Of a stretch of DNA of 33,271 nt, positions 290 through 25,099 are shown piece after piece. The notes beneath the pieces are model-generated. The model had not been told where the DNA came from. It saw only the letters and a list, made by a program, of their open reading frames with translations, and did no database searches. The number at the start of each line of letters is the position of its first letter. The first letter of the stretch is position 1. A program made the position numbers and the translations under genes. Origin of the DNA: Gammaproteobacteria bacterium (GTDB taxonomy: Bacteria; Pseudomonadota; Gammaproteobacteria; Pseudomonadales; Azotimanducaceae); contig JAPOVY010000023.1 in assembly GCA_026707905.1 (NCBI GenBank), forward strand, positions 1-33,271. The letters run 5' to 3'.

Positions 290-577
290 ATGGACGACGA
301 AACGATCGAGCGACTTCTGACCTTAAGCCAGCTGTCTCTTGATATAGAAGATCGGGAAAAGATTCGTCGCGATTTAGATGCGATCATCGGTTTCATCGAG
401 ATCATGGATCAAGTTAACACAGAAGAAGTTGAACCGCTCGCACACGCAGTTGACCTAGATCAACCATTACGGAAAGATCGTGCAGTAATAGATTTTGATA
501 GGGATGTATTCCAGTCAATTGCCCCAAAAACTGCTGATGGGTTCTATCTTGTCCCGAAAGTGCTGGATCAGAATTGA
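290..577 (+). CDS. gatC: Glutamyl/aspartyl-tRNA amidotransferase subunit C
   Basis: This is the small GatC subunit of the GatCAB amidotransferase, which converts Glu-tRNA(Gln) and Asp-tRNA(Asn) to the amide forms in the cytoplasm. GatC wraps around GatA and GatB and stabilises the complex. The protein has 95 residues, the usual length. It shows the N-terminal helix (ETIERLLTLSQLSLD), the central DLDAIIGFIEIMDQVNT segment and the typical VEPLAHA motif near residue 46. The ATG at 290 gives the usual family N-terminus, although I see no strong ribosome binding site. The stop overlaps the gatA start by four bases, so gatC, gatA and gatB are probably translationally coupled. Confidence 0.93.
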   Translation: MDDETIERLLTLSQLSLDIEDREKIRRDLDAIIGFIEIMDQVNTEEVEPLAHAVDLDQPLRKDRAVIDFDRDVFQSIAPKTADGFYLVPKVLDQN

Positions 578-2028
578 AGCCATTCATTGGAGTACAGGAA
601 CTTCGGAACGATCTACGGGCAAAGAAGTACAGCGCTGTAGAGCTAGCTCATTTTTATCTAGACTGCATTTCGGAGCTAAACGATTCGATTAATTGTTTCA
701 TAACCGTTGACGCCGATCGATGTCTGGATCGAGCAGCAGCGGCAGATAGACATTTAGCGGAATCAGATCCCCAACCGCTATGTGGTATCCCGATTGCTCA
801 CAAGGATTTGTTCTGTACCGCGGGTTTGCGTACGACATGTGCTTCGAACATGCTGGGGTCATTTATTGCTCCTTATGACTCGACAGTCGTCAAGCAGATA
901 GCGGAAGCCGGAGCAGTCACATTGGGAAAAACGAACATGGATGAGTTTGCCATGGGCTCGTCCAATGAAACGAGCTGGTTTGGCGTCGTTCGAAATCCGT
1001 GGAATCTCAGTCGTGTACCCGGTGGTTCTTCTGGCGGAGCCGCAGCTTCGGTATCGAGCGGAATGACGCCATTGGCCACCGGATCAGACACGGGTGGATC
1101 GATTCGCCAACCGGCTAGTCTGTGTGGGATAACTGGCTTAAAGCCAACATATGGGCGAGTGTCCCGCTTCGGAATGATTGCATTTGCTTCAAGTTTGGAC
1201 CAAGGGGGTCCTTTAGCCCATAGTGCCTCTGATGTGTATGAGTTACTAGCTGCGATGGAAGGTCACGATCCGCAGGACTCGACGTCCGCCGACATTGGGA
1301 AAACGGTGCTACCCGAAAGTGATCGATCGTTCGTGATCGGATATCCAGAATCGCTGTTCGATGATTTGGACAAGAACATCGCAGCATGCATCGAACGCGC
1401 GAGACAACAGTTCGAGGCGCTTGGTCACAGAATTGAGGTCGTTGAACTACCACATATTGATGCGGCGATTGCAGCGTATTACGTACTTTCGAGTGCGGAG
1501 GCTTCAACGAATCTGGCACGATACGATGGCGTGCGTTACGGACATCGAACTGACGTGTCCGAGGATTTGCTGGACATGTATTGTCGATCCCGTACTGAAG
1601 GTTTCGGTCTTGAAGTCAAACGGCGAATACTGACGGGTACCTACTCCCTGTCGGTGGGCTATTTCGATGCTTACTACCTTAAAGCCCAGAAAATTCGTCG
1701 GTTAGTACGCGATGGTTTTCTTTCAGCCTTCGAAAGTGTTGACATGATCTTAGCACCCGTTACGCCTAACACCGCATTTGAAATCAATTCACTGAAGGCC
1801 GATCCGGTGGAAATGTATAAGCAAGATCTTTACACGATTCCGGTTAGCCTTGCAGGATTGCCAGCGTTAGCCTTACCGTGCGGTTTCGTCGATGATTTAC
1901 CTGTCGGTATGCAACTGATCGGACCCCATTTCGCGGAAGGTGAAGTATTGGCAGGTGGAATGGCGTTTCAGGGCGAGACAGACTGGCACGAACACCACCC
2001 GAGCCTGGAGTCTGCTAGCACGTCGTGA
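574..2028 (+). CDS. gatA: Glutamyl/aspartyl-tRNA amidotransferase subunit A
   Basis: GatA is the amidase-signature subunit that hydrolyses glutamine and supplies ammonia through a channel to GatB. The protein is 484 residues, full length for the family. The Ser-cisSer-Lys triad can be read as Lys77 (in AHKD), Ser152 (in GGSSGG) and Ser176 (in DTGGSIRQP), with spacing matching characterised GatA proteins. Translation starts at a TTG that overlaps the gatC stop (TTGA). This is the first in-frame start after the upstream gene and gives the expected N-terminus. The stop overlaps the gatB GTG by four bases. No truncation or missing catalytic residue is seen. Confidence 0.95.
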   Translation: MKPFIGVQELRNDLRAKKYSAVELAHFYLDCISELNDSINCFITVDADRCLDRAAAADRHLAESDPQPLCGIPIAHKDLFCTAGLRTTCASNMLGSFIAPYDSTVVKQIAEAGAVTLGKTNMDEFAMGSSNETSWFGVVRNPWNLSRVPGGSSGGAAASVSSGMTPLATGSDTGGSIRQPASLCGITGLKPTYGRVSRFGMIAFASSLDQGGPLAHSASDVYELLAAMEGHDPQDSTSADIGKTVLPESDRSFVIGYPESLFDDLDKNIAACIERARQQFEALGHRIEVVELPHIDAAIAAYYVLSSAEASTNLARYDGVRYGHRTDVSEDLLDMYCRSRTEGFGLEVKRRILTGTYSLSVGYFDAYYLKAQKIRRLVRDGFLSAFESVDMILAPVTPNTAFEINSLKADPVEMYKQDLYTIPVSLAGLPALALPCGFVDDLPVGMQLIGPHFAEGEVLAGGMAFQGETDWHEHHPSLESASTS

Positions 2029-3464
2029 GTAGCAAATGGGAGCCAGTCGTCGGTATCGAGGTCCACGTTCAGTTAGCAACGAGATCAAAAATCTTCTCCA
2101 GTACATCGGTGGAGTTTGGCGCAGAGCCAAATAAGCGCGCCAATTTGATTGATGTAGCGATGCCCGGAGCGCTACCTGTCTTAAACGAAGAAGCAGTCAC
2201 GATGGCTGTGAAGTTTGGTCTGGCGATCGACGCAGAGATTGCGGAGAGATGCGTCTTCGATCGAAAGAACTATTTCTATCCCGACCTTCCGAAGGGCTAC
2301 CAGATCAGCCAGTTTGAATCGCCAATTGTCGGACGAGGACAACTCTCGGTATTTCGTGAGGATGGCTCTGTTCGACAGATTGGTATCACCCGTGCACACC
2401 TCGAGGAGGACGCGGGTAAATCAGTCCACGATCGGTTCTCTGAATCCACTGGTATTGATCTCAATCGTGCCGGAACACCTTTACTTGAGATTGTCACAGA
2501 GCCTGATATGAGATCAGCAGCGGAAGCGGCCGCGTGTTTCCGGCAGATTCACTCTTTAGTCAGTTGGCTAGGTATCTGTGATGGTAATCTCGCGGAAGGA
2601 TCGATGCGTTGCGATGCAAACGTTTCAGTGAGACGGGTTGGAGATACGTCGTTTGGTGAACGGACTGAGATCAAGAACATAAATTCGTTTAGGTTTGTAG
2701 AGCGTGCTCTAAATTACGAGATTGAGCGACAGATCGACATTCTTGAGGCAGGCGGTGAAGTCGTTCGAGAAACCCGTCACTATGATGCAGATCGCGATAT
2801 GACGTTGTCGATGCGCAGCAAGGAACTATCTGATGACTACCGCTACTTTCCAGATCCTGATCTATTGCCATTGCGTCTCTCTAGCGAATTCCTCGATCGC
2901 GTGCGTTCTACGATGCCTGAATTGCCTCAACAGAAGCTTGAGCGATTTATCACAGACTATTCGCTAGCGCAATCCGTAGCAGTTCGGCTAACTCGAGATT
3001 CCAACCTCGCGTCGTATTTCGAATCAACGATTGCGTCGGGTGCAGATCCACATCTCGCGGCAAATTGGTTACTTGGCGAAGTGGCAGCTGCTCTCAACAG
3101 AGAAGAGAAAGACTATACGGACACACCGGTCTCGTCAGCACAGCTGGCAGATTTGATTAAGAGAATACAGGATAAGACCCTGTCTTCAACGCTCGCAAAG
3201 GAAGTTCTTGAGCTCATTTGGACGTCTGACGATTCTGTAGACGACATCATCGAGCGTCAGGGGCTTCGTCAACTAGACGATGCCGACGAAGTACGTACCC
3301 TGGTCGAGCGCATCATTGTGGATCACCCGGATCAAGTCGAGCAGATCCGAAGCGGCGCGACAAAAGTAATGGGTTTTCTAGTGGGGCAGGTAATGAAGGC
3401 GTCCCAAGGCAAAGCAGACCCTAGGCAAGTAAGTGATTTATTAAAACGAATGCTAAACATATAA
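2025..3464 (+). CDS. gatB: Glutamyl/aspartyl-tRNA amidotransferase subunit B
   Basis: GatB binds the misacylated tRNA, activates its side-chain carboxylate with ATP and transfers the ammonia from GatA. At 479 residues the protein is full length. It begins with the family signature VGIEVHVQL, carries GTPLLEIVTEPD near residue 150 and ends in the YqeY-like helical tail (VMGFLVGQVMKASQGKADP). The start is a GTG overlapping the gatA stop (GTGA). A complete gatCAB implies that Gln-tRNA and/or Asn-tRNA is made by transamidation. Which one applies depends on whether glnS and asnS exist elsewhere in the genome. Confidence 0.95.
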   Translation: MSSKWEPVVGIEVHVQLATRSKIFSSTSVEFGAEPNKRANLIDVAMPGALPVLNEEAVTMAVKFGLAIDAEIAERCVFDRKNYFYPDLPKGYQISQFESPIVGRGQLSVFREDGSVRQIGITRAHLEEDAGKSVHDRFSESTGIDLNRAGTPLLEIVTEPDMRSAAEAAACFRQIHSLVSWLGICDGNLAEGSMRCDANVSVRRVGDTSFGERTEIKNINSFRFVERALNYEIERQIDILEAGGEVVRETRHYDADRDMTLSMRSKELSDDYRYFPDPDLLPLRLSSEFLDRVRSTMPELPQQKLERFITDYSLAQSVAVRLTRDSNLASYFESTIASGADPHLAANWLLGEVAAALNREEKDYTDTPVSSAQLADLIKRIQDKTLSSTLAKEVLELIWTSDDSVDDIIERQGLRQLDDADEVRTLVERIIVDHPDQVEQIRSGATKVMGFLVGQVMKASQGKADPRQVSDLLKRMLNI

Positions 3465-14443: not shown

Positions 14444-16405
14444 TCAACTCGCCAAAAGATCGAAACCGAAGTCTTTCAGTAGTGACCGAATTCGGTCTGA
14501 GTTACTAATGCGTCGCATAGCATTCGCCTCGATTTGTCGGATGCGTTCACGTGTCACGTCAAACTGCTTGCCTACTTCCTCTAACGTGTGGTCTTGATTC
14601 ATGCCGATGCCGAACCGCATACGAAGAACCTGACTTTCGCGTGGATCCATGTCGTCAAGCGTTTCTTTGATCGCGTCCGACAGGTTCTTGTGCGCGGTAT
14701 TGTCAACAGGTGACTGGGCGCTTGCATCTTCAATAAAGTCCCCAACAGTCGCGTCGCCGTCTTCACCTACCGGTTTTTCCATGGATAGCGGTTCTCGACC
14801 AATTTCCTGAACGCGCCGGACTTTTTCCTCGTTGATTTCCATTCGCTCAGAAAGCTCTTCGGGCGTAGGCTCCCTTCCCAGTTCCTGTGTCATTTGGCGC
14901 GTGATGCGATTGAGTTTGTTGATCGTTTCGATCATGTGAACCGGAACGCGAATCGTTCGAGCGTGATCAGCAATGGCTCGAGTAATCGCTTGTCTAATCC
15001 ACCACGTCGCATATGTTGAAAACTTGTATCCGCGACGGTATTCGAACTTGTCGACAGCTTTCATAAGGCCAAGGTTGCCTTCTTCGATGAGATCGAGGAA
15101 GTGAAGACCCCGATTAGTGTATTTTTTGGCGATCGACATCACCAACCGTAGATTCGCTTCGACCATGTCATTCTTGGCGAGGCTCTTTTCCTTAGCGCCA
15201 TTCCGAACTTGGTCGTGGATACCTCGAATCGTGGCGTACTTGAGACCCGGGTTTCGAGTGTGGGCGGGTATGGGTAGGGTTATTCCAGTTTTACGTTTTA
15301 GGATAGTTCGTGAATGTCGCTGATCTAGTTCTTCTTCTCGTATATATCTATGCGCTCTAAGAATTTCGACTTCATATTCGGTAAGTTTTCGGCTATATGG
15401 TTTGTCAGTTGAATGGCGTTTGTACCAACTGGTAGATGATTCCTTGCCACGAAATTCTTCCTTAAACTCGTCAATTGGCATGCGACAGCGGCGCACGATT
15501 TTCTCGAGTGCTCGCTCTTGCTCCCTTAAGTGTCGCCAAGAAGTCTCAGCGATTTGACAGACGTGATCGTGGTGGACAAGGGTAAATTTGAAGTATTTAA
15601 ATATCTGCGCCATATCGTCGAGCGCTTTGACGGCCTCCTTCGTCCGCCAATTGCGTTGCTTTGCTAGTATCTTGTGACACTTCGCATGGGCACGTTTCAA
15701 CTCATCGAATCGTTTTTTCGCTTCGTCAGGATCGGGTCCTTTACGTTTATTGTCCTTCGTTTCATCTTTTGGCGTGTTGGCGTCGATTTGTTGGGCTGGT
15801 TTAACAACTTCCATCGGGTTGAGATACCCGACTAACAGCTCTCCTAGTTTCTTGCGTTTCGTTACGTCCTCATAGACTTCCAGAACGTAATCCACGACCC
15901 CAGGAAATGCTGCCACTGCCTCGAGTTCTGCGCTAATACCGGCTTCGAGACGCTTCGCGATTTCGATTTCTTTCTCACGCGTCAATAGGCCGACTTTACC
16001 CATTTCACGCATATACATTCGCAGCGGGTCTGTAGTGCGTCCCGTCTGATTTTTCTCGATCGCCGTTAAGGCGGCGTTTAGTTGCTCTTCCTCTAATAAC
16101 TCGTCGTCGCTGGCGGAGGCTTCATTGCCTTGCAGTAGATCTTCTTCCGTCGGCGGCGACTCGAAGACCTTTATTCCGGCATCTTTTATGTCTGCGACGA
16201 ATTCTTCAAATACGACGCTAATGTCACTATCGTCGTCACCGACATCGATGAAATCGGTGATCTCCTCATACGTTACGTAGCCTTGCTCTCGGGCTTTCGC
16301 CAAGAACTCAATTGAGTCAGTAACAGAACGATCGATATCAGCGCGTGTTTCGATTGTTGCTTGCTGGGAATCTTGGAGTGAGTTAGCCCGGGCTTGCTTT
16401 GCCAT
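14444..16405 (-). CDS. rpoD: RNA polymerase sigma-70 factor, primary (RpoD) type; sigma A
   Basis: The protein has 653 residues and full primary-sigma architecture. Region 1.1 is at about 32-92 ([16 protein letters not shown]), region 1.2 at 124-155 ([12 protein letters not shown]), the non-conserved region at about 160-345, region 2 at 410-480 ([21 protein letters not shown]-type segment, [14 protein letters not shown]), region 3 at 485-560 with [12 protein letters not shown] and region 4 at 580-640 with [11 protein letters not shown]. All E. coli -10, extended -10 and -35 contact residues are kept. Oddities are a 24-residue basic insert at about 361-390 before region 2, and LIEEGN instead of LIQEGN in region 2.2. 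It is the last of four sigma genes. Its ATG has no visible Shine-Dalgarno. Sigma C competes for the name rpoD. Confidence 0.92.
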
Positions 16406-16790
16406 GCGTAGAAACGGTGTCGGAGAAGAGGCGCTATTTTAAGAATGAAAATCTCAAGATGTGTGGTGCGTTTTATGTGTACCAATTTGTAACAAAGTCG
16501 GCTTTATTTTCTACGGATGACGAATCTCTGAGAGGCTTAACTGGTCTGTCAGCCAAGCCATTGAAATATAGGAAAACAACACAATCAGATATAGCCGCTC
16601 GCTATCTTGAATTACGTCTGCTATGCAACGGATATTTGTAGATATCTGAATATTTGTTCAATAGGTAACAATGGTCTTAATATAAATTTTCAAATCCGCT
16701 GGTAGTCATGTAATTTACGTACATGTTAGTTGTATCGGATGATACATTGTGCTAATGCAATTGATCAAATTTCGTCTATTCCTAGACTTA
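16406..16790. other. Gene-free region between sigma B and sigma A
   Basis: This 385-base stretch is clearly more AT-rich than its neighbours and has no supportable ORF. It contains small inverted repeats, CATGTA/TACATG (16707-16725) and GTATC/GATAC (16732-16745), without U tracts. One candidate minus-strand promoter is listed separately. The length suggests that sigma A is transcribed from its own promoter here, with a long 5' leader. Confidence 0.5.
16739..16768 (-). promoter_or_regulatory. Candidate promoter for sigma A
   Basis: On the minus strand TTGATC (16763-16768) and TATCAT (16739-16744) are 18 bases apart. It lies just past the sigma B stop, about 330 bases before the sigma A start codon. 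The region is AT-rich, so this is only a suggestion. Confidence 0.22.
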
Positions 16791-18518
16791 CTACAGATAC
16801 GGTTCCAATAATGGTGTGTAGCGTGGCTGACGGAGTCGCCGAAGCGCTTTCACGGTGATTTGTCGAACACGATTACTTGAAATACCTAACTCGCGCGCGA
16901 TTTCTGTAGTTGACATATCTGATGTCCTACCAATTCCATAACGAAGTGACAGAATCTGTGTTTCACGAGTTGTCAGGTCCGCTAATGTCAACTCGACTGC
17001 GTCCCGTAATCCTTGTTCGAGCGCGATTTGCTCAGGCGAAGGTATGCTCTCACTTATTAGCGTGTCTACTAACGTCGTATCGTCTTCGTCGTTATTCGGC
17101 TCGTCGATAGAGATTGCGTTGTGCTCATACAGAACGACATCACGAATCTGTTGAACGCTCAATCCTGTTTCCGCAGCAAGCTCCCCTAGTTTCGGATCCC
17201 GTCCGAGAACCTGGGTCAAGCGCATTTTCGCGCGTCCGACATTACGAATGGCCTGCGTGAGGCTTGCGGGGAGCTTCACAGTGCGCCCGAATTCATTTAA
17301 CGCTTGCGTGATCGCTTGCCGAATCCACCAGGTTGCATACGTTGAGAACTTAAATCCACGAGTGTAGTCGTATTTCTCCGCTGCACGAATTAACCCAAGG
17401 TTGCCTTCCTGGATTAGATCAAGTAAGAGCGCACCATGATTGCTGTAGGTCTGTGCAACGCGCATGACCAACCGTAAATTGCCTGAAACGAGCGCGTTTT
17501 TGGCTGCGCGGAATCGCTGAATGGCGTTGTTAAGAAGCTGGTCGCGTTCAAGTAGCTCAACGTACGATAGGTCACACTGCTGTTCGATTTTTTGAAGTCT
17601 CTGACGTACATGTTCGAATACGTGCATGTGTGCGTTCAGGTTGGCTAGTACTTCATTTGACAGATCGTCGACTGTTTGTGTAAGTCGACGCGCTGTTAAA
17701 CGGGGCAGGAATTGTTCAACAAACTCAGGTTCCGACACGCCTGCTGTGAGGCAGATCGATCTAGCGCGTGACGTTGCACTTTCTACCGACCGCACCGCTT
17801 CTTTGAAAGTGTCAAGTAGAGACGTATAGTGGTTGGTAGCGAATTTGAAGAAGCGGAACGACTCTTCCAGTGCTGTTAGTTGCTTGTGAGTACGTTCGTT
17901 TCTGGGTTTGTGGAAGTACTCTGCTGACGCGCTTTCGAAAAGCCGAATACGCTTTCTAAGAAGCTCTTGGTCCATCGGATCCTCGCGTTCGCTGGTGTTG
18001 CCATTTGCTTCGGGTCGATCAACTTCCGGCAATTTCTCTACATGGTCGAGGAATCCTGCAAAGAGTCGGTTTAACTGGCCGTTTTTTATGTGTGAAGTAA
18101 TTAGCTCCTGACATTGCCTATTTACAGGTTTCACTGCTGCGATACAGACAAGGACTTCGCTCATCGCGTCGTTCATTGCCCGTGAATACGTTAGCTCCTC
18201 GTCCCTAGAGAGTAGGTCGAATTCGCCTACGTCCCGCATGTAAATCTGAGTGTTCTCTCGGATGGACCCTCGCTCGCGCTCTTCGATCTCCTCGACAATC
18301 TGGGCTTCTTGGTCGCGCTCGAAGTCGTATACATCGACACCGATCTCGATTAATCTGTGTGCGAGCTCGATGTACTGCTCGTCGTGTAAATCCGTATGCA
18401 AACGGGCGAACGCACAAACGTCGTTCATTGAGAGACGTCCGTCTTCAGCGACATACAGGCTTAAATGATCGACAGCCTGTTCAAAGGTCTTCATCTGAGA
18501 AGCGTTCCACTCCCGCAA
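16791..18518 (-). CDS. Divergent sigma-70 factor with RpoD architecture; sigma B
   Basis: The 575-residue protein has a region 1.1-like helical N-terminus (about 10-65), region 1.2 at 90-115 ([21 protein letters not shown]), a non-conserved region with the [11 protein letters not shown] motif near 221, region 2 at 345-410, region 3 and region 4. The core -10 segment [15 protein letters not shown] is intact. The extended -10 pair equivalent to E. coli His455/Glu458 is replaced (PASLTQ, residues 417-422). In region 4.2 the -35 contacts equivalent to Arg584/Glu585 are Ser548/Asn549 (ISSNRVRQI). It is therefore likely to read a changed promoter set. It lies between dnaG and sigma A. The start is TTG at 18518, with an ATG at 18494 as alternative. 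Confidence 0.87.
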
Positions 18519-18642
18519 CTGCTGCGTACTAGGTAAGACACGCGAATACGTTTCAATTTCTCGAATTATCCAACGGAATTTGTAGGAATTCGTTCATCAG
18601 CTGAAACAGATCTCATACTACGTTGGACCTATTGATGTCAGA

Positions 18643-20454
18643 CTATCGTGGTTGGGATGCGTCATCGTCGTCCGATAGACTGAGTAACTCAAGTTGCACT
18701 TGGCGCTCAATGTCACGCTGCTTTACAGTTAGAAAGGTCTCAACGCCGTCGACAAATTGATCCAGGATCTCTTGTGCGTTTCTTGCGGAGCTTGTGTTTG
18801 TTGCGTCGTAGATTTCTGCAAGGTAGCGGGCAAACCACGTATCGTCCTGAAAGAAGGCGATGAGACCGCTGATGTCCGTAAAGCCATGGTGGTCAATCGC
18901 CTGCCAGAGGCGCGTCAGTGGGTCGTTCTGAGCAACATCGACGAGTCGATGTAAGAGCGTGCGATAGTCGCCTAGACGGGTCCATATTTCGGGCGCACAT
19001 ATCAATTGACTGACGCGCCGACGTGTGTTTATCTCGTTGTAATAACGCTCCGATCGAGCGGTGCTAAGATCGTGTTCAACCTCCGATTCCTCGATTTCAC
19101 CTTCAAAGGGTGGAGGTCCGGCTGGTTCTTGGTTCATCGAATTCAGCGTTAGCAGCTGATCCATGTTCACTTCGTCCGGAAAGCATCGGGCTACCTCTTG
19201 CGCCAGAATCGTGCGAAAGGAGTCATGTTTGATTCCTTGTATCAACGATTTCGCGCGATCGACGAATCGTGCTTTCTGCTCAATACTGCTGAATGTGCGA
19301 TCTTTGGTTTCCAGCAGAGAATCAACGAAATAGTCAGCGACGTGTTGTGCGTTGTTGATGGACTCTTCGAATACAGCTGCTCCTTCGGATCGAACAAAGC
19401 TATCAGGATCTTCCCCCTCAGGTAGGAACATGAACTTGACGGTCTTTTCGTCGGTTAAAGCCGCGAGTGCGGCTTCGAGCGCTCTCTTGGCGGCGGTTCT
19501 TCCCGCATCGTCACCGTCGAAGCAGCAGATGACTTCATTCGTGAACCAGAACATTGTTCTGAAATGTACGTCGTTTGATGCAGTTCCGAGCGCTGCGACC
19601 GCGTATGGAATACCGTGTTGGGACAGAGCAATGACATCCATATATCCTTCTACGAGCAGTAGCTTCTCGGGACGTCGTTTGATGTTCAGCACTTCAAATA
19701 GACCGTAGAGTTCTCGGCCTTTTGAGAAGACCTTGGTTTGCTTCGTATTCAGATACTTTGGCTCGACATCATCGTCAAGTGTTCGACCTCCGAAACCAAC
19801 GACGTTACCGTCGCGATTACGGATCGGGAACATCAAGCGGTTGCGGAATCGATCGTAAACGGACTTGCGTTCGCGGTTTTCGACGAGTACATCTGCATCG
19901 ATCAACGTACGTACGTCAGTATCCACTAAGTGCTCTTTTAAGCTAGACCACGCGTTCGGCGCGAAACCTATTTGGTATTTTTCGATGACTGCTTGATTGA
20001 TGCCTCGGGAATTGAGGTATTGCTTGATCGCAGTATTACTACCGGCGCGTTCGAGATGGCGATTGAAAAAGAGGGCGCTCCGCTGAAGAACATCCAGAAG
20101 TGCGAGCTGCTCCTTCGTCGGTCCTCGTGAGCCGCGACGTTCCGGTAGCGGAACGCCGAGAAATTGTGCGACTTCCTTGACGGCATCAGGGAAGCTAGCG
20201 CCATTTTGTTCCATAAGAAAATTGAAAATCGAACCCTTTTTCTGGCAACCGAAACAATAAAAACTACCATCGTCGCGGATATACATCGATGGTTTGCTGT
20301 CCTTGTGAAAGGGACACAAAGCGCGATGTCGGTCGCCGCTTTTTTCGACTTTAAAGTAACGACTTAAGAACGCCGGTCCGTCAAGTCGGTTCGTTAGATC
20401 ACTCAGGAACTCGCGGTCAAACTGACCACGTTGATTTGTAGGAGACTCGACCAT
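18643..20454 (-). CDS. dnaG: DNA primase
   Basis: DnaG makes the RNA primers for replication and acts with the DnaB helicase. The 603-residue protein has the N-terminal zinc-binding domain (Cys47, His50, Cys67, Cys70 in CPFH and CFGC), the RNA polymerase domain with the TOPRIM glutamate Glu269 in LLVEGYMDVIAL and the acidic metal motif FDGDDAG at 312-318, then a helical helicase-binding C-terminus. The start gives a normal N-terminus. It follows rpsU by 105 bases, as in the conserved rpsU-dnaG-rpoD operon, but a divergent sigma gene (sigma B) comes next, 124 bases downstream, before the canonical sigma A. Confidence 0.96.
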   Translation of the reverse strand: MVESPTNQRGQFDREFLSDLTNRLDGPAFLSRYFKVEKSGDRHRALCPFHKDSKPSMYIRDDGSFYCFGCQKKGSIFNFLMEQNGASFPDAVKEVAQFLGVPLPERRGSRGPTKEQLALLDVLQRSALFFNRHLERAGSNTAIKQYLNSRGINQAVIEKYQIGFAPNAWSSLKEHLVDTDVRTLIDADVLVENRERKSVYDRFRNRLMFPIRNRDGNVVGFGGRTLDDDVEPKYLNTKQTKVFSKGRELYGLFEVLNIKRRPEKLLLVEGYMDVIALSQHGIPYAVAALGTASNDVHFRTMFWFTNEVICCFDGDDAGRTAAKRALEAALAALTDEKTVKFMFLPEGEDPDSFVRSEGAAVFEESINNAQHVADYFVDSLLETKDRTFSSIEQKARFVDRAKSLIQGIKHDSFRTILAQEVARCFPDEVNMDQLLTLNSMNQEPAGPPPFEGEIEESEVEHDLSTARSERYYNEINTRRRVSQLICAPEIWTRLGDYRTLLHRLVDVAQNDPLTRLWQAIDHHGFTDISGLIAFFQDDTWFARYLAEIYDATNTSSARNAQEILDQFVDGVETFLTVKQRDIERQVQLELLSLSDDDDASQPR

Positions 20455-20463
20455 CGCCCGCTA

Positions 20464-20492
20464 ACTATATAGCAGGTCAGTAGGTTTATTAA
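20464..20492 (-). promoter_or_regulatory. Candidate promoter directly before dnaG
   Basis: On the minus strand TTAATA (20487-20492) and TATAGT (20464-20469) are separated by 17 bases. Transcription would start only a few bases before the dnaG ATG, giving an almost leaderless mRNA. The -10 is a 5 of 6 match and the -35 a 4 of 6 match. Confidence 0.25.
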
Positions 20493-20559
20493 GACGTAAG
20501 TGAGCTAGATGAAGGGATCGGCGTACGCACCACTGCCGCTACGAATTTCGGTTAATTTA

Positions 20560-20775
20560 CTAATGGAGTCGTTCGAATCGACGTGCTTCTCTGCTAATTT
20601 TCTTCTGTAGTCTTTTCTTCGCCGCCGCTTCTTTGCGTTTACGTACGGTCGTAGGTTTTTCGTAGTACTCTCGACGACGTGCTTCCGACAATATCCCTGC
20701 TTTCTCGCACGCACGCTTAAATCGTCTCAACGCCAAGTCGAATGATTCGCTGTCTCGAACCTTAATTGAGGGCAT
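20560..20775 (-). CDS. rpsU: 30S ribosomal protein bS21
   Basis: This is the small basic ribosomal protein bS21, which sits near the 3' end of 16S rRNA and assists initiation. Its 71 residues match the family throughout: [20 protein letters not shown] at the start, a middle with [18 protein letters not shown], and a Lys/Arg-rich tail ending in RFERLH. It lies 48 bases after the sigma C stop and 105 bases before dnaG. Co-transcription with sigma C is therefore plausible, which differs from the usual arrangement where rpsU is the first gene of the operon. Confidence 0.97.
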
Positions 20776-20823
20776 CTACTGACTCAGAAATTCAGGGCGA
20801 GTAATTCTATGCAGGAAAGGTAG

Positions 20824-22758
20824 TTAGGTAAGGTGTATGAAGTCCTCAGCGAGCACGCGTGCGGCCAACGAATTCTGGATTCGTCGCATCGCGGTTGCCT
20901 CTATCTGACGAATACGTTCGCGGGTGACATCAAACTGTTTACCGACCTCTTCTAGTGTATGGTCTTGATTCATTCCGATACCGAAGCGCATACAAAGAAC
21001 TTGACGTTCGCGCGGATCTAGCTCATTAAGGATCACTTCGATCACGTCACGAAGATTCTCGTAGGCGGTAACGTCAATAGGCGTCTTCGTGTTGTTGTCT
21101 TCGATGAAATCGCCGACCGTTGCGTCGCCATCTTCACCGAGCGGCCGCTCCATCGATACTGGTTCGCGACCAATCTCTTGCACTCGTCTCACGCGATCGT
21201 CATTGATTTCCATCCGCTCCGCAAGTTCCTCTGAGTTAGGTTCGCGCCCTAGCTCTTGTGTCATTTGCCGAGTGACACGATTGAGCTTGTTGATCGTCTC
21301 GATCATGTGGACTGGAACACGGATCGTGCGAGCGTGGTCCGCAATCGATCGAGTGATCGCTTGACGAATCCACCAGGTCGCGTAAGTAGAGAACTTGAAG
21401 CCGCGCCGATATTCAAACTTATCGACTGCTTTCATCAAGCCTAAATTACCTTCTTCGATGAGATCAAGGAAGTGCAGCCCACGATTCGTGTATTTCTTCG
21501 CGATCGACATGACGAGACGGAGGTTGGCCTCGACCATGTTGTTTTTCGCGATGCTCCTCTTCTTCTGCCCGGCTCGTACGCGTTGATGAATTTCGGAAAT
21601 CGAGGCGTATGTCGTGTGATTGTGAGTAGTCGCTAGACGGCGGTCTCGTGGGACGGACGTCTTTCGTTTCATTGCGTTGACAGAGTATCTCTGATCGATC
21701 TCTTCTTCTCGAATGCACCGGTGAGCGCGCATTAGTTCTACTTCGTACTTCGCTAGGCGCTTACTGTATGAGTGATTGGCTTTGACATGGCGTTTCACCC
21801 ATGCGGATGATGACTCCTTCCCTTCGAATTCCTTCTGGAAAACCTCCAATGGCATTCGACAGCGTTTAATCAGTTTGCGTAGTTCGCGCTCCTGCTGACG
21901 TACTCGTTGCCACGAAGATTCCGCCATTTCGCACAGATGGTCATGGTGAGGCTGCGTGAACTTAAAGAACTTGAATACCCGAGCAACTGCTGTTAACGCT
22001 CTTACGGATTCCTCACTCCGCCAAGATTTCTGCGTAGCGATTACCTTTTGAGCTTTGCGATACGCTCTGCGGAGTCGAGTGAAGCGTTTCTTTGCTTCAG
22101 CGACGTCCGGTCCTTTGCGCTTATTCGTTTGGCTGGGATCCTTGGGTGTGTTCGCATCGATTTGTTTAGCCTGAGGCACATGTTCCATCGGATCAAGATA
22201 TCCAACCAGCAAATCCCCAAGTTTCTTGCGTTTGGTTACGTCGTCATATACGTTCAGAACGTACTCTACAACGCCCGGGAAAAAAGCTAACGCTTCAAGT
22301 TCATCGCTAATTCCGGCTTCCAGTCGACGCGCGATCTCGATTTCCTCATCACGTGTGAGTAGACCAACAGCACCCATCTCTCGCATATACATGCGCAGGG
22401 GATCAGTCGTACGACCGGTAACATTTTTCTCGATCGCGATAAGTGCTGCGCTGAGCTGCTCTTCTTCAAGTTCATCGTCATCGCTCGACGAAGGATCGTT
22501 GCCTTGAAGAAGATCCTCTTCAGTTGGAGGCGTTTCGAATACTCGTATGCCGGCATCTTTGATGTCTGCGACAAACTCTTCGAATATGAGACCGATGTCG
22601 CTGTCATCGTCGCCGACGTCAATAAAGTCGGTAATTTCCTCGTAAGTTACATAGCCCTGTTCGCGGGCTCGCTCAAGAAAAGTGATTAATTCGGTGGGTG
22701 CGTTGTCCTTGTTATCGAAAGAATTAGTTAGTTGTGAGTCAGTTTCGGGACTTGGCAT
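20824..22758 (-). CDS. RNA polymerase sigma-70 factor, primary (RpoD) type; sigma C
   Basis: This 644-residue second canonical sigma is closely related to sigma A along its whole length. It has the same region 1.1 ([16 protein letters not shown] at 34-49), region 1.2 ([12 protein letters not shown]), a non-conserved region with QIDANTPKD and NKRKGPD, region 2 at 400-470, [12 protein letters not shown] and [11 protein letters not shown]. The E. coli promoter-contact residues are kept, so its specificity should overlap that of sigma A. It also has the 24-residue insert before region 2, at about 351-384 and of different sequence, and LIEEGN in region 2.2. The extreme C-terminus differs from sigma A. 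It lies upstream of rpsU, an unusual place for an RpoD gene. Whether A or C is the housekeeping factor cannot be decided here. Confidence 0.9.
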
Positions 22759-23020
22759 TCGACCTGTGACGGGATGGTTACTCGACCACCCTCCTAATCG
22801 TTAACAAGTAGATCGCTACACTGGGCGCGTTAGCGAATATTAAAAGTGTATTCACAAAATTTGCGACGCACAATTGAATTGAAGCGATTTGTGATAACAA
22901 TGCTATCTATGCACCACGGACGAAATCGTTGGCGATACCTTTCTAGTTAATGATGCCGCTTGGCGAGACGTTGATGGTTTAGAAGTCAGTTAGTAGTACT
23001 TAAGAGTTTTCAACGTAATG
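22759..23020. other. Gene-free region upstream of sigma C
   Basis: The sigma D to sigma C gap is 317 bases (22759-23075), of which 23021-23055 is the sigma D terminator. The rest has no supportable gene. On the minus strand an AGGAGGG lies about 35 bases before the sigma C ATG, too far to act as its ribosome binding site, and no in-frame start lies near it. A candidate sigma C promoter is listed separately. Confidence 0.5.
22845..22873 (-). promoter_or_regulatory. Candidate promoter for sigma C
   Basis: On the minus strand TTGTGC (22868-22873) and TACACT (22845-22850) are 17 bases apart, about 85 bases before the sigma C start. The strong terminator after sigma D implies that a promoter must exist in this gap. 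Confidence 0.3.
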
Positions 23021-23055
23021 AAAAAGCCGGGTCCATTCATGAACGGACCCGGCTT
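23021..23055 (-). terminator. Intrinsic terminator of sigma D
   Basis: Read on the minus strand, AAGCCGGGTCC pairs perfectly with GGACCCGGCTT (plus-strand arms 23024-23034 and 23045-23055) and is followed by a U5 run. The loop contains TTCATGAA, which can extend the stem. It begins 20 bases past the sigma D stop and should separate sigma D transcription from sigma C. Confidence 0.92.
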
Positions 23056-23075
23056 CAGTTGGTTAACGAAATCGC

Positions 23076-24818
23076 TTAGCGCAAATATGGTTCAAGCGAT
23101 TTCGACATCGGACTGAGTCGAAGTTTCTTTAACGCTGACATGTGAATCTGGCGTACACGTTCGCGCGAAACATGCAACTCGTTCGCAATCTGCGTGAACG
23201 TCATCGCATCGTTCCGGTTGATACCAAAGTTCATCGCCATCACCATTTGTTCGCGCGCGTCAAGTACGGCAAGTGCTTTGCCTACCACTGATGGACGACT
23301 TTCGTCAACTGCTTGATCCTCAGGCGATCGGACGGATTCATCTGCGATCATGTTGCCGAAAGTTGTGCCGTCATCTTCGTCACCAACAGGCGTATCGAGA
23401 CCGCGAAGTTCTCGGGTGTAATTAAAGACGTCTCGCACTTGCTTCGCCGTCTTGTCAACACGGCTGCCGATTTCCTCCGCGGTTGGTTCTCGAAGAAGCT
23501 CTTGGGTCAACTGTCGTTGTGCACGATATACCTTTTTCATGTCTTGATTGACATTAGCCGGTAGTCGTACGGTTCGACCGTATTCTCCTAGAGCACGCGT
23601 AACTGCCTGACGAATCCACCAGGTCGCATACGTTGAGAACTTGAATCCTCGGGTATAGTCGAACTTTTCGATTGCCCGAATCAGACCGACATTCCCTTCT
23701 TGGATTAGGTCCTCTTCCTCAACGCCTCGATTCTTGAATTTCTGAGCGATCGACATGACAAGACGAAGGTTTCCTACCGCAAGTCCTTCGGTCGCGGCAT
23801 TCACCCGTGATTCACCTTTCTTCACACGACGGCTGATCTTTAGTAATTCCTCAGTGTTGTGACCAAGCTGCTTCTCGACCGCGCGAACCTGTGATCTCAA
23901 TTCTGAGATCTTGTTTGCGTGCAGCGCCAATGCGTCGCGAACTCGCTTCGGTTGCGAGGCAACCAATGTCATCCACCGACGCCCGGTGATGTTCGGTTCG
24001 AATTCGCTCTCGTATGCGTGCTTGGCAACACCGGCCATCCGCACGATTCTTCGTAACTTGGTGCGGGCGGACTCTAACGGAGCCATGCTCGTTCTGAACA
24101 GATGCACGAAATCGAGATAGTGCGGCATCGTAAACTTGAAGAAACCGAATGCATGCTCAAGCTCGTTTCGCGAATTGACGGTGCGTCTCTGTTTGGGTTG
24201 TGCGTAGTACGCATCCATCACTTTCGTAAACCGCTTGAATCGGGTTTTCGCTTGATGTAAATTCGGAGGCGTACCCTTGGTATCTCGAGGTGCGTTGCTT
24301 GCAACGACATTAATCTTCGGTAACTCATCTACGACATCCAGATAACCGGCGACAAAGCGGTCAAGACGTCCGGACTCGAAGTGCGCTTCGAATAGCGCGC
24401 GAGCTTGTTCAACGACGGGTTGGATGGTTGCTAGTGCCGATAGAACCTCGCTCATGCCGTGATTCCTTGCACGGGCTAACTCAAGTTCTTCATCACGGGA
24501 AAGAAGGTCTAGCTTTGACAACTCGCGCATGTAGATATGCACGTTGTCGCGAATACTGGCTTCCGCCTTTTGAAGATGCGCTTCGATTTCATCATCGGGT
24601 TCCGCGATCGCAAAACCGTCGGTCGCTAGGCGCGACAGTAGATCGTCGATTCTGGGATCGTCGATCGCGACTTCGCCGTTGAACAGATCAAGGATGTCCT
24701 GAATTGAAATCAGGTCTTCTGAATCTGGGCGGAGCCGTAACTCTTCAACGAGATCTTTGTAATCGATACCAGCGATCGCATCTTGATTTATCTGTTCTTT
24801 ACTGTAGTAAACGCTCAT
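23076..24818 (-). CDS. Divergent sigma-70 factor with RpoD architecture; sigma D
   Basis: The 580-residue protein has a region 1.1-like N-terminus (about 18-75), region 1.2 at 92-120 ([21 protein letters not shown]), a non-conserved region with [14 protein letters not shown] near 224, region 2 ([40 protein letters not shown] at 348-408), region 3 and region 4. Region 4.2 keeps VSRERVRQI, so -35 contacts look normal. The extended -10 positions equivalent to His455/Glu458 are Asn and Gln (PANVNQ, 420-425). It lacks the insert seen in sigmas A and C. It pairs best with sigma B by overall features. A good AAGGGA ribosome binding site precedes the ATG, and the gene ends at a strong terminator. Confidence 0.88.
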
Positions 24819-24999: not shown

Positions 25000-25099
25000 C
25001 CGGTCTGATATAGCGTGCAGGTATACGCCACGTTTTGCGAAATCCAAAGTTTGAGTGCCCATGAGACACATGCGCGGCAAGAAAGTTCACAGTTTCTAC

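Follow-up and report, generated by a model that had tools for sequence, protein, structure and literature searches.

A conserved locus with four sigma factor genes

The window, which is the complete stretch of 33,271 nucleotides analysed in this study (contig JAPOVY010000023.1 of assembly GCA_026707905.1, here also C103), belongs to a gammaproteobacterial genome of 3.49 Mb that is split into 157 contigs and is 93% complete. On its minus strand, four genes for sigma factors of the RpoD type surround the genes of ribosomal protein S21 (rpsU) and DNA primase (dnaG) in the transcription order S1-S2-rpsU-dnaG-S3-S4; S1 and S3 are divergent sigma factors, and S2 and S4 are canonical RpoD proteins. 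This four-sigma locus around rpsU-dnaG is real and conserved. In this lineage, the primary sigma factor has probably multiplied at its home locus, giving two redundant primary sigma factors and two promoter-shifted sigma factors that resemble those of group 2. The six genes are located as follows (aa, amino acids; the letters A to D are the names used in the original prediction, which was made from this DNA alone):

23076..24818, minus strand: S1 (sigma D), divergent RpoD-type sigma factor, 580 aa
20824..22758, minus strand: S2 (sigma C), canonical RpoD, 644 aa
20560..20775, minus strand: rpsU, ribosomal protein S21
18643..20454, minus strand: dnaG, DNA primase
16791..18491, minus strand: S3 (sigma B), divergent RpoD-type sigma factor, probably 566 aa; the open reading frame (ORF) opens at TTG 18518 (575 aa)
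14444..16405, minus strand: S4 (sigma A), canonical RpoD, 653 aa

Order and strand of the six genes had been predicted correctly, and the order recurs in five further genomes of the genus. S3 probably starts at the ATG at position 18491, since this codon aligns with a conserved methionine in all five S3 N-termini that were compared.

A search for the gene order in other genomes, as proposed in the original prediction, covered 58 genomes, 18 of them from the genus of the window. Four sigma factor matches on one contig were found in 6 of these 18 genomes (G000, G001, G006, G010, G016 and G017), and the order S1-S2-rpsU-dnaG-S3-S4 is identical in the window and in the stretches fetched from the other four-copy genomes; the contigs with this locus reach 1.4 Mb, 482 kb and 281 kb. 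Ten genomes of the genus (G002, G004, G005, G007, G008, G009, G011, G012, G014 and G015) possess rpsU-dnaG followed by two RpoD-type genes, with the order rpsU-dnaG-divergent-canonical in G004. G003 and G013, in which the locus is broken by contig ends, were left out of the copy counts. Where the stretches reach far enough, a class II tRNA synthetase gene is located on one side and an aminotransferase gene on the other side; these common flanks indicate that the locus is orthologous within the genus.

Among 20 stretches from other genera or families, 14 showed a single rpoD after dnaG (13 of these with rpsU included), five a lone RpoD-like gene away from dnaG, and one a sigma factor gene without a dnaG match. 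The five lone genes (L043, L045, L049, L051 and L053) are from other genera of the family, and four of them form a clade of their own (100/100). In a survey of the taxonomic order (293 genomes), at least seven genomes had two RpoD matches at E 1e-85 or better, namely four from this genus and G018, G635 and G590 from outside; the second copy of G018 is located on a separate contig. In a survey of the class (369 genomes), S1 matches better than 1e-100 occurred only in the genome of the window, which was the sole genus member sampled, and at least six further genomes (G068, G220, G255, G271, G355 and G399) had two S1 matches at 1e-60. As neither survey scored more than three or four candidates in a genome, these counts are lower bounds and other clusters are possible.

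Additional genes were observed within the locus in some genomes. A TnpB-type transposase gene (OrfB_IS605, with a Cas12f1-like TNB domain; L062:8225-9100) is located in the rpsU-dnaG gap of the four-copy genome G001. In G005, about 7 kb separate the two sigma factor genes and encode an HSP70-TPR protein, a UvrD-like helicase and a Schlafen AlbA_2 protein (L066:8691-14164); this insert looks like mobile or defence-like cargo.

All four sigma factor genes are under strong purifying selection, with ratios of nonsynonymous to synonymous substitution rates (dN/dS) of 0.01–0.08. These ratios were calculated by the Nei-Gojobori method between the window and the five other four-copy genomes, using only pairs with unsaturated dS, and amounted to 0.030–0.051 for S1 (four of five pairs), 0.013–0.020 for S2 (three of five), 0.058–0.078 for S3 (three of five) and 0.011–0.024 for S4 (four of five). 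The ratio of dnaG (0.085–0.097; two of five pairs) was above those of all four sigma factor genes.

Duplication history

In maximum-likelihood trees, S1 and S3 are sisters, as are S2 and S4, with a support of 100/99 or better in three trees. An origin of S1 from S2 by tandem duplication, which would group S1 with S2, was rejected in a topology test (p 2.5e-5). The duplicated pair of a divergent and a canonical gene, which had been suggested from the gene order, is thereby supported. The first copy after dnaG in G004 is sister to S1 and S3 (100/97 to 100/99), and the second copy is sister to S2 and S4 (98/94 to 100/100). Because of these two positions, the gene order of G004 seems to preserve the arrangement that preceded copying of the pair to the other side of rpsU-dnaG. 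In the DnaG tree, the six four-copy genomes are grouped together (100/100), G004 branches next (93/88), and ten other genomes form a separate clade (100/99). In the two-copy clade apart from G004, the copy adjacent to dnaG is the more conserved one, which is the opposite of the situation in G004. If RpoS is omitted from the tree, all copies of the genus form a single clade (99/99).

RpoD-type features of the four proteins

The original prediction described the four proteins as full-length sigma factors with a region 1.1-like part, region 1.2, the non-conserved region (NCR) and regions 2 to 4. Regions 1.2, NCR, 2, 3 and 4 were indeed detected above the Pfam cut-offs in all four proteins, and the NCR between regions 1.2 and 2 (Sigma70_ner, cut-off 29.7 bits) scored 32.2 and 33 bits in S1 and S3, respectively. 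Region 1.1, however, was detected by Pfam in S2 and S4 only. A hidden Markov model (HMM) of this region, derived from 43 RpoD proteins from outside the genus, yielded 46–49 bits for S2 and 43–44 bits for S4, but 2.0–7.6 bits for S1 and 5.6–10.0 bits for S3, with 7.5 bits as the best value among 240 shuffled control sequences. Profile comparison gave a probability of 38% for region 1.1 in S1/S3. At the level of sequence, this region can hardly be recognized in S1 and S3. An AlphaFold model of S3 (mean pLDDT 82), built on an alignment containing canonical RpoD proteins, shows N-terminal helices at residues 3–17, 22–32 and 37–49, and chains of E. coli RNA polymerase sigma-70 structures ranked first when this model was searched with Foldseek.

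The NCBIfam model for RpoD (NF004208, cut-off 555 bits) was passed by S2 (650.1) and S4 (648.7) and missed by S1 (360.1) and S3 (309.4), for both of which it is still the top-scoring NCBIfam model. The cut-off for RpoS (TIGR02394, 378.7 bits) was reached by none of the four proteins (S1 251.1; S2 289.6; S3 215; S4 273.6), nor was that for RpoH (TIGR02392, 323.1 bits; S1 132.9; S2 130.2; S3 109.6; S4 126.8). Identity with RpoH is ruled out by these scores together with a separate RpoH elsewhere in the source genome, which passes with 358.4 bits. MzaA, the sigma factor of the MZA anti-phage system, is ruled out as well, as all four proteins (262.3–395.2 bits) stay below the cut-off of NF041931 (800 bits).

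The six four-copy genomes together encode 24 cluster proteins, and 19 of these, from both pairs, carry the motif F.[FY]FKF...H, located in the NCR near E. coli position 256. Elsewhere it occurred in 0 of 21 other copies of the genus, those of G004 included, and in 1 of the 43 RpoD proteins from outside, all of which possess a looser form of the segment that harbours it.

Residues contacting promoter and core enzyme

Residue numbers follow E. coli sigma-70, anchored on Tyr430, and the residues are assigned their textbook roles. In the 43 outside RpoD proteins, conservation amounts to at least 97% at 16 of the 17 positions considered and to 91% at the remaining one, position 444. At each of the 17, S2 and S4 carry the consensus residue in all six genomes. 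Fixed changes in S1 of all six genomes are A444G, V454A, H455N, E458Q and E574T; further changes occur at 562, 573 and, in G006, 440, and R584, E585, R588 and Q589 are kept. S3 shows the fixed changes R441Q, A444N, R451K, H455S, E458Q, L573T and E585N, in addition to R584S/A and changes at 454 and 574. The aromatic residues for melting (Y430, W433 and W434) as well as D403, E407 and N409 are retained in all 24 cluster proteins. Judged by the roles that textbooks assign to these residues, reading of the extended -10 element should be altered in S1, and reading of the -10, the extended -10 and the -35 element in S3.

Other sigma factors of the genus

In the source genome, proteins with a Sigma70_r3 domain are S1 to S4 only, and no further rpoD, about which the original prediction had asked, was found in this 93%-complete genome. 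In addition, one RpoH, six further matches to sigma region 2 (ORFs of 185–482 aa) and one copy of 6S RNA were identified. The anti-sigma factor Rsd was detected in 0 of the 18 genomes of the genus, which is weakly informative, since among 14 control genomes the search matched only E. coli.

RpoS above the cut-off was found in 0 of the 18 genus genomes and in 25 of 40 other genomes, i.e. in 6 of 19 from other genera of the family and in 19 of 21 from other families. Four genomes of the family (G022, G025, G031 and G035) have two RpoS-type matches each, at or slightly below the RpoS cut-off.

Origin of the cluster and alternative explanations

An expansion at the home locus would have proceeded in three steps. 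The rpoD gene beside rpsU-dnaG would have been joined by a second gene in tandem within this genus; the two neighbours would have parted ways in one subclade, where one remained canonical and the other diverged; and the pair of divergent and canonical gene would then have been copied to the opposite side of rpsU-dnaG, resulting in S1-S2-rpsU-dnaG-S3-S4. S2 and S4, which differ most from each other in the NCR and at the ends, would both be primary sigma factors of the same promoter specificity and might differ in dose, timing or partner contacts. S1 and S3 would bind the same core RNA polymerase, steer it to altered promoters and compete with S2 and S4 for the core. Such competition is typical of group 2 sigma factors, which are similar to RpoD in sequence but dispensable for growth; perhaps S1 and S3 fill the place of RpoS. 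They are possibly promoter-shifted sigma factors with roles of the RpoS type. That S1 and S3 descend from RpoD is likely, although not proven, and is favoured by the NCR that both have kept, by their location at one locus with the canonical genes, by the tree from which RpoS was omitted and by the ranking of the HMM scores.

A more far-reaching scenario is put forward only tentatively. A genus without detectable RpoS might have duplicated rpoD repeatedly within its native operon and so have built RpoS-like regulators of its own; G004 and the two-copy species would represent earlier steps. The S3 holoenzyme would then serve a promoter class distinct from that of RpoD (altered in -10, extended -10 and -35), and the whole set would be wired into the operon for translation, replication and transcription.

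Several observations weigh against an expansion from the local rpoD or against parts of it. The tree program warned of long branches meeting, among them that of G004, in all three sigma factor trees, and a small tree of the tRNA synthetase (16 rows) leaves the placement of G004 open. Topologies in which the divergent clade is joined with the first copies (p 0.152) or with the second copies (p 0.378) of the other subclade were both not rejected, so that the tests favour neither a single origin of the tandem pair for the genus nor separate origins in each subclade. The shared NCR motif, from which the original prediction had concluded that all four genes come from an RpoD ancestor, is real, supports an NCR of the RpoD type in S1 and S3 and fits such an ancestry, but it is missing from both copies of G004. 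As the pairs split before G004 in the trees, this absence requires loss or convergence; loss, convergence or a wrong tree might each account for the distribution of the motif. The core-contacting regions 2.1–2.2 are altered at 17 (S1) and 18 (S3) of 39 conserved sites, which makes unaltered core binding by S1 and S3 uncertain. Finally, RpoS above the cut-off is also absent from 13 of the 19 family genomes from other genera, and the loss of RpoS alone therefore does not explain the gain of sigma factors.

The deeper relationship of the divergent pair bears on a second explanation, according to which this pair did not originate locally. S1, S3 and the divergent copy of G004 would go back to an older paralogue resembling RpoD or RpoS, or to a horizontally acquired sigma factor gene that was inserted beside dnaG, and the local canonical rpoD would later have been copied along with them. 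When RpoS is included in the tree, the divergent clade adjoins it at weak support (63/53), a placement of this clade outside the family was not rejected (p 0.306, quick tree), and S1 and S3 score below the cut-offs of both RpoD and RpoS. These findings are opposed by the single clade that the copies of the genus form once RpoS is left out of the tree, by the NCR of S1 and S3 with the motif of S2 and S4, by their longer N-terminus and by NF004208 as their best NCBIfam match. A grouping of S1 alone with RpoS, apart from S3, was rejected (p 5e-4), although the whole divergent clade was outside this test. From the proteins compared here, the divergent pair may or may not be kin to RpoS. The assertion that the genes derive from RpoD and not from RpoS or RpoH therefore holds with regard to RpoH, for which kinship is unsupported, and is less than fully supported with regard to RpoS in the case of S1 and S3. 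Altogether, a non-local origin appears rather unlikely, but it is the most serious competitor of the expansion at the home locus.

It is quite improbable that all four proteins are equivalent primary sigma factors which serve gene dosage or growth-rate control, with the divergent copies evolving fast and recognizing the same promoters. The conserved Y430, W433 and W434, the retention of most -10 contacts and the purifying selection on all four genes would be in agreement with such equivalence. In all six genomes, however, S3 carries R441Q, R451K, H455S, E458Q, R584S/A and E585N, and S1 carries H455N and E458Q; positions 441, 451, 455, 458, 584 and 585 are invariant in the 43 outside RpoD proteins.

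An assembly or binning artefact, for which the division of the source genome into 157 contigs might speak, or a set of decaying duplicates can practically be dismissed: six genomes show this order, with contigs reaching 1.4 Mb, the ORFs are intact, dN/dS is low, and S2 and S4 have diverged far at silent positions. Where both proteins have an identical amino acid (Met and Trp excluded), 174 of 432 codons are shared, and the codon identity in blocks of about 40 ranges from 22 to 55%. This divergence gives no sign of recent copying or conversion. Misassembly is thus ruled out, and the arrangement is not due to chance either, because the order recurs in the genus and the codons of S2 and S4 differ widely.

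Upstream regions and transcription units

Conserved upstream blocks were found in the six genomes before S1, S2, rpsU and S4, and a weaker one before S3, which makes several promoters likely. Three of the sequences are:

TAAAATAGCGCC, 16430..16441, minus strand: 25–36 bases upstream of S4; candidate -10 element with GC-rich discriminator
TTGGATAATTCG, 18562..18573, minus strand: partly conserved block upstream of S3
TTGGATTTCG, 25038..25047, minus strand: within the conserved 5' region upstream of S1

The candidate -10 element of S4 reads TAAAAT in five of the six genomes and TACAAT in G006. TTGGAT..TTCG occurs upstream of both S1 and S3 and is, at the level of the locus, a candidate for a dedicated promoter element. 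The sequence TAAAATNNCGCC has six matches in the source genome and none in the reversed control. Apart from the site at S4, three matches are located 34–40 bases before ORFs which by eye resemble gatC, lpxC and nudC, one is located 126 bases before another ORF, and one precedes no ORF. As similar sites precede ordinary genes, TAAAATNNCGCC and the S4 block were rejected as a special element and look like an ordinary housekeeping promoter.

S1 and S2 are separated by 317 bases in the window. In two genomes, a flavin monooxygenase-like gene on the opposite strand is located between them (L078:5803-7416 and L067:9044-10681; Pfam family for L078 only), and S1 is therefore probably not always co-transcribed with S2. 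Distant from the cluster, positions 290-3464 of the window comprise an ORF of 95 aa, an amidase-family gene and gatB in a row, which suggests a gatCAB operon (gatC assigned by eye).

Probable source organism and significance

A sponge symbiont clade is listed in the Pseudomonadales family HTCC2089 in the accessible text of PMC8941161, and that of PMC12203066 mentions Nitrospira sp. SB0677 as matched by sponge reads. G002 is identical over 17,001 bases to VYFT01000009.1 of Gammaproteobacteria bacterium SB0677_bin_6, and RpoD proteins from records with the titles K189A clade and HTCC2089 fall within those of the family. The source organism is likely an uncultured marine gammaproteobacterium living as a sponge symbiont and belonging to the family HTCC2089.

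The primary sigma factor is usually treated as single-copy and slowly evolving, and rpoD is used as a phylogenetic marker. Typing based on rpoD and sets of single-copy markers can fail in this genus. Furthermore, relatives with one, two and four copies provide a natural series for the birth of group 2 sigma factors from rpoD, which is otherwise usually discussed on the basis of RpoS, a single ancient event.

Comparison with known systems

RpoD paralogues are already known from other bacteria; for several rpoD genes around rpsU-dnaG, no report was found in literature searches, which did not reach most papers in subscription journals. The macromolecular synthesis operon rpsU-dnaG-rpoD resembles the locus in that a canonical RpoD gene shares its strand with rpsU and dnaG, but it has one sigma factor gene instead of four, of which two are located upstream of rpsU and two are divergent. 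RpoS, a duplicate of RpoD that shares the core with it, would be a functional analogue of S1 and S3. RpoS proteins are not known to possess the long NCR. The RpoS proteins fetched here comprise 321–446 aa, whereas S1 and S3, with 566–580 aa, have retained the NCR and score below the cut-off for RpoS. RpoS originated from a duplication of rpoD and the loss of region 1.1, according to the available part of PMC7527412.

In Burkholderia, SigI and SigJ, together with a second rpoD of B. xenovorans, are considered alternative primary sigma factors in the portion of PMC2194791 at hand; they are proteobacterial RpoD-like paralogues with all RpoD domains, and their function is likewise unknown. Compared by description, they differ from the present locus, as no cluster around dnaG is described in that portion and B. 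cenocepacia also possesses rpoS. Cupriavidus metallidurans has two RpoD-type sigma factors, the canonical RpoD1 and the divergent RpoD2 (34% identity to E. coli RpoD), and thus one of each kind, but they are encoded on separate replicons, with no tandem or flanking arrangement described in the accessible sections of PMC2864759; RpoD2 is thought by its authors to come from another lineage (PMC2864759). The Hrd proteins of Streptomyces belong to Actinobacteria, only one of them is a group 1 sigma factor, and no rpsU-dnaG cluster is described in the available text of PMC5742136. With HrdA, HrdB, HrdC and HrdD, however, they likewise amount to up to four RpoD-like sigma factors per genome, one of which is the primary sigma factor and the others are of unclear role (PMC5742136, same text).

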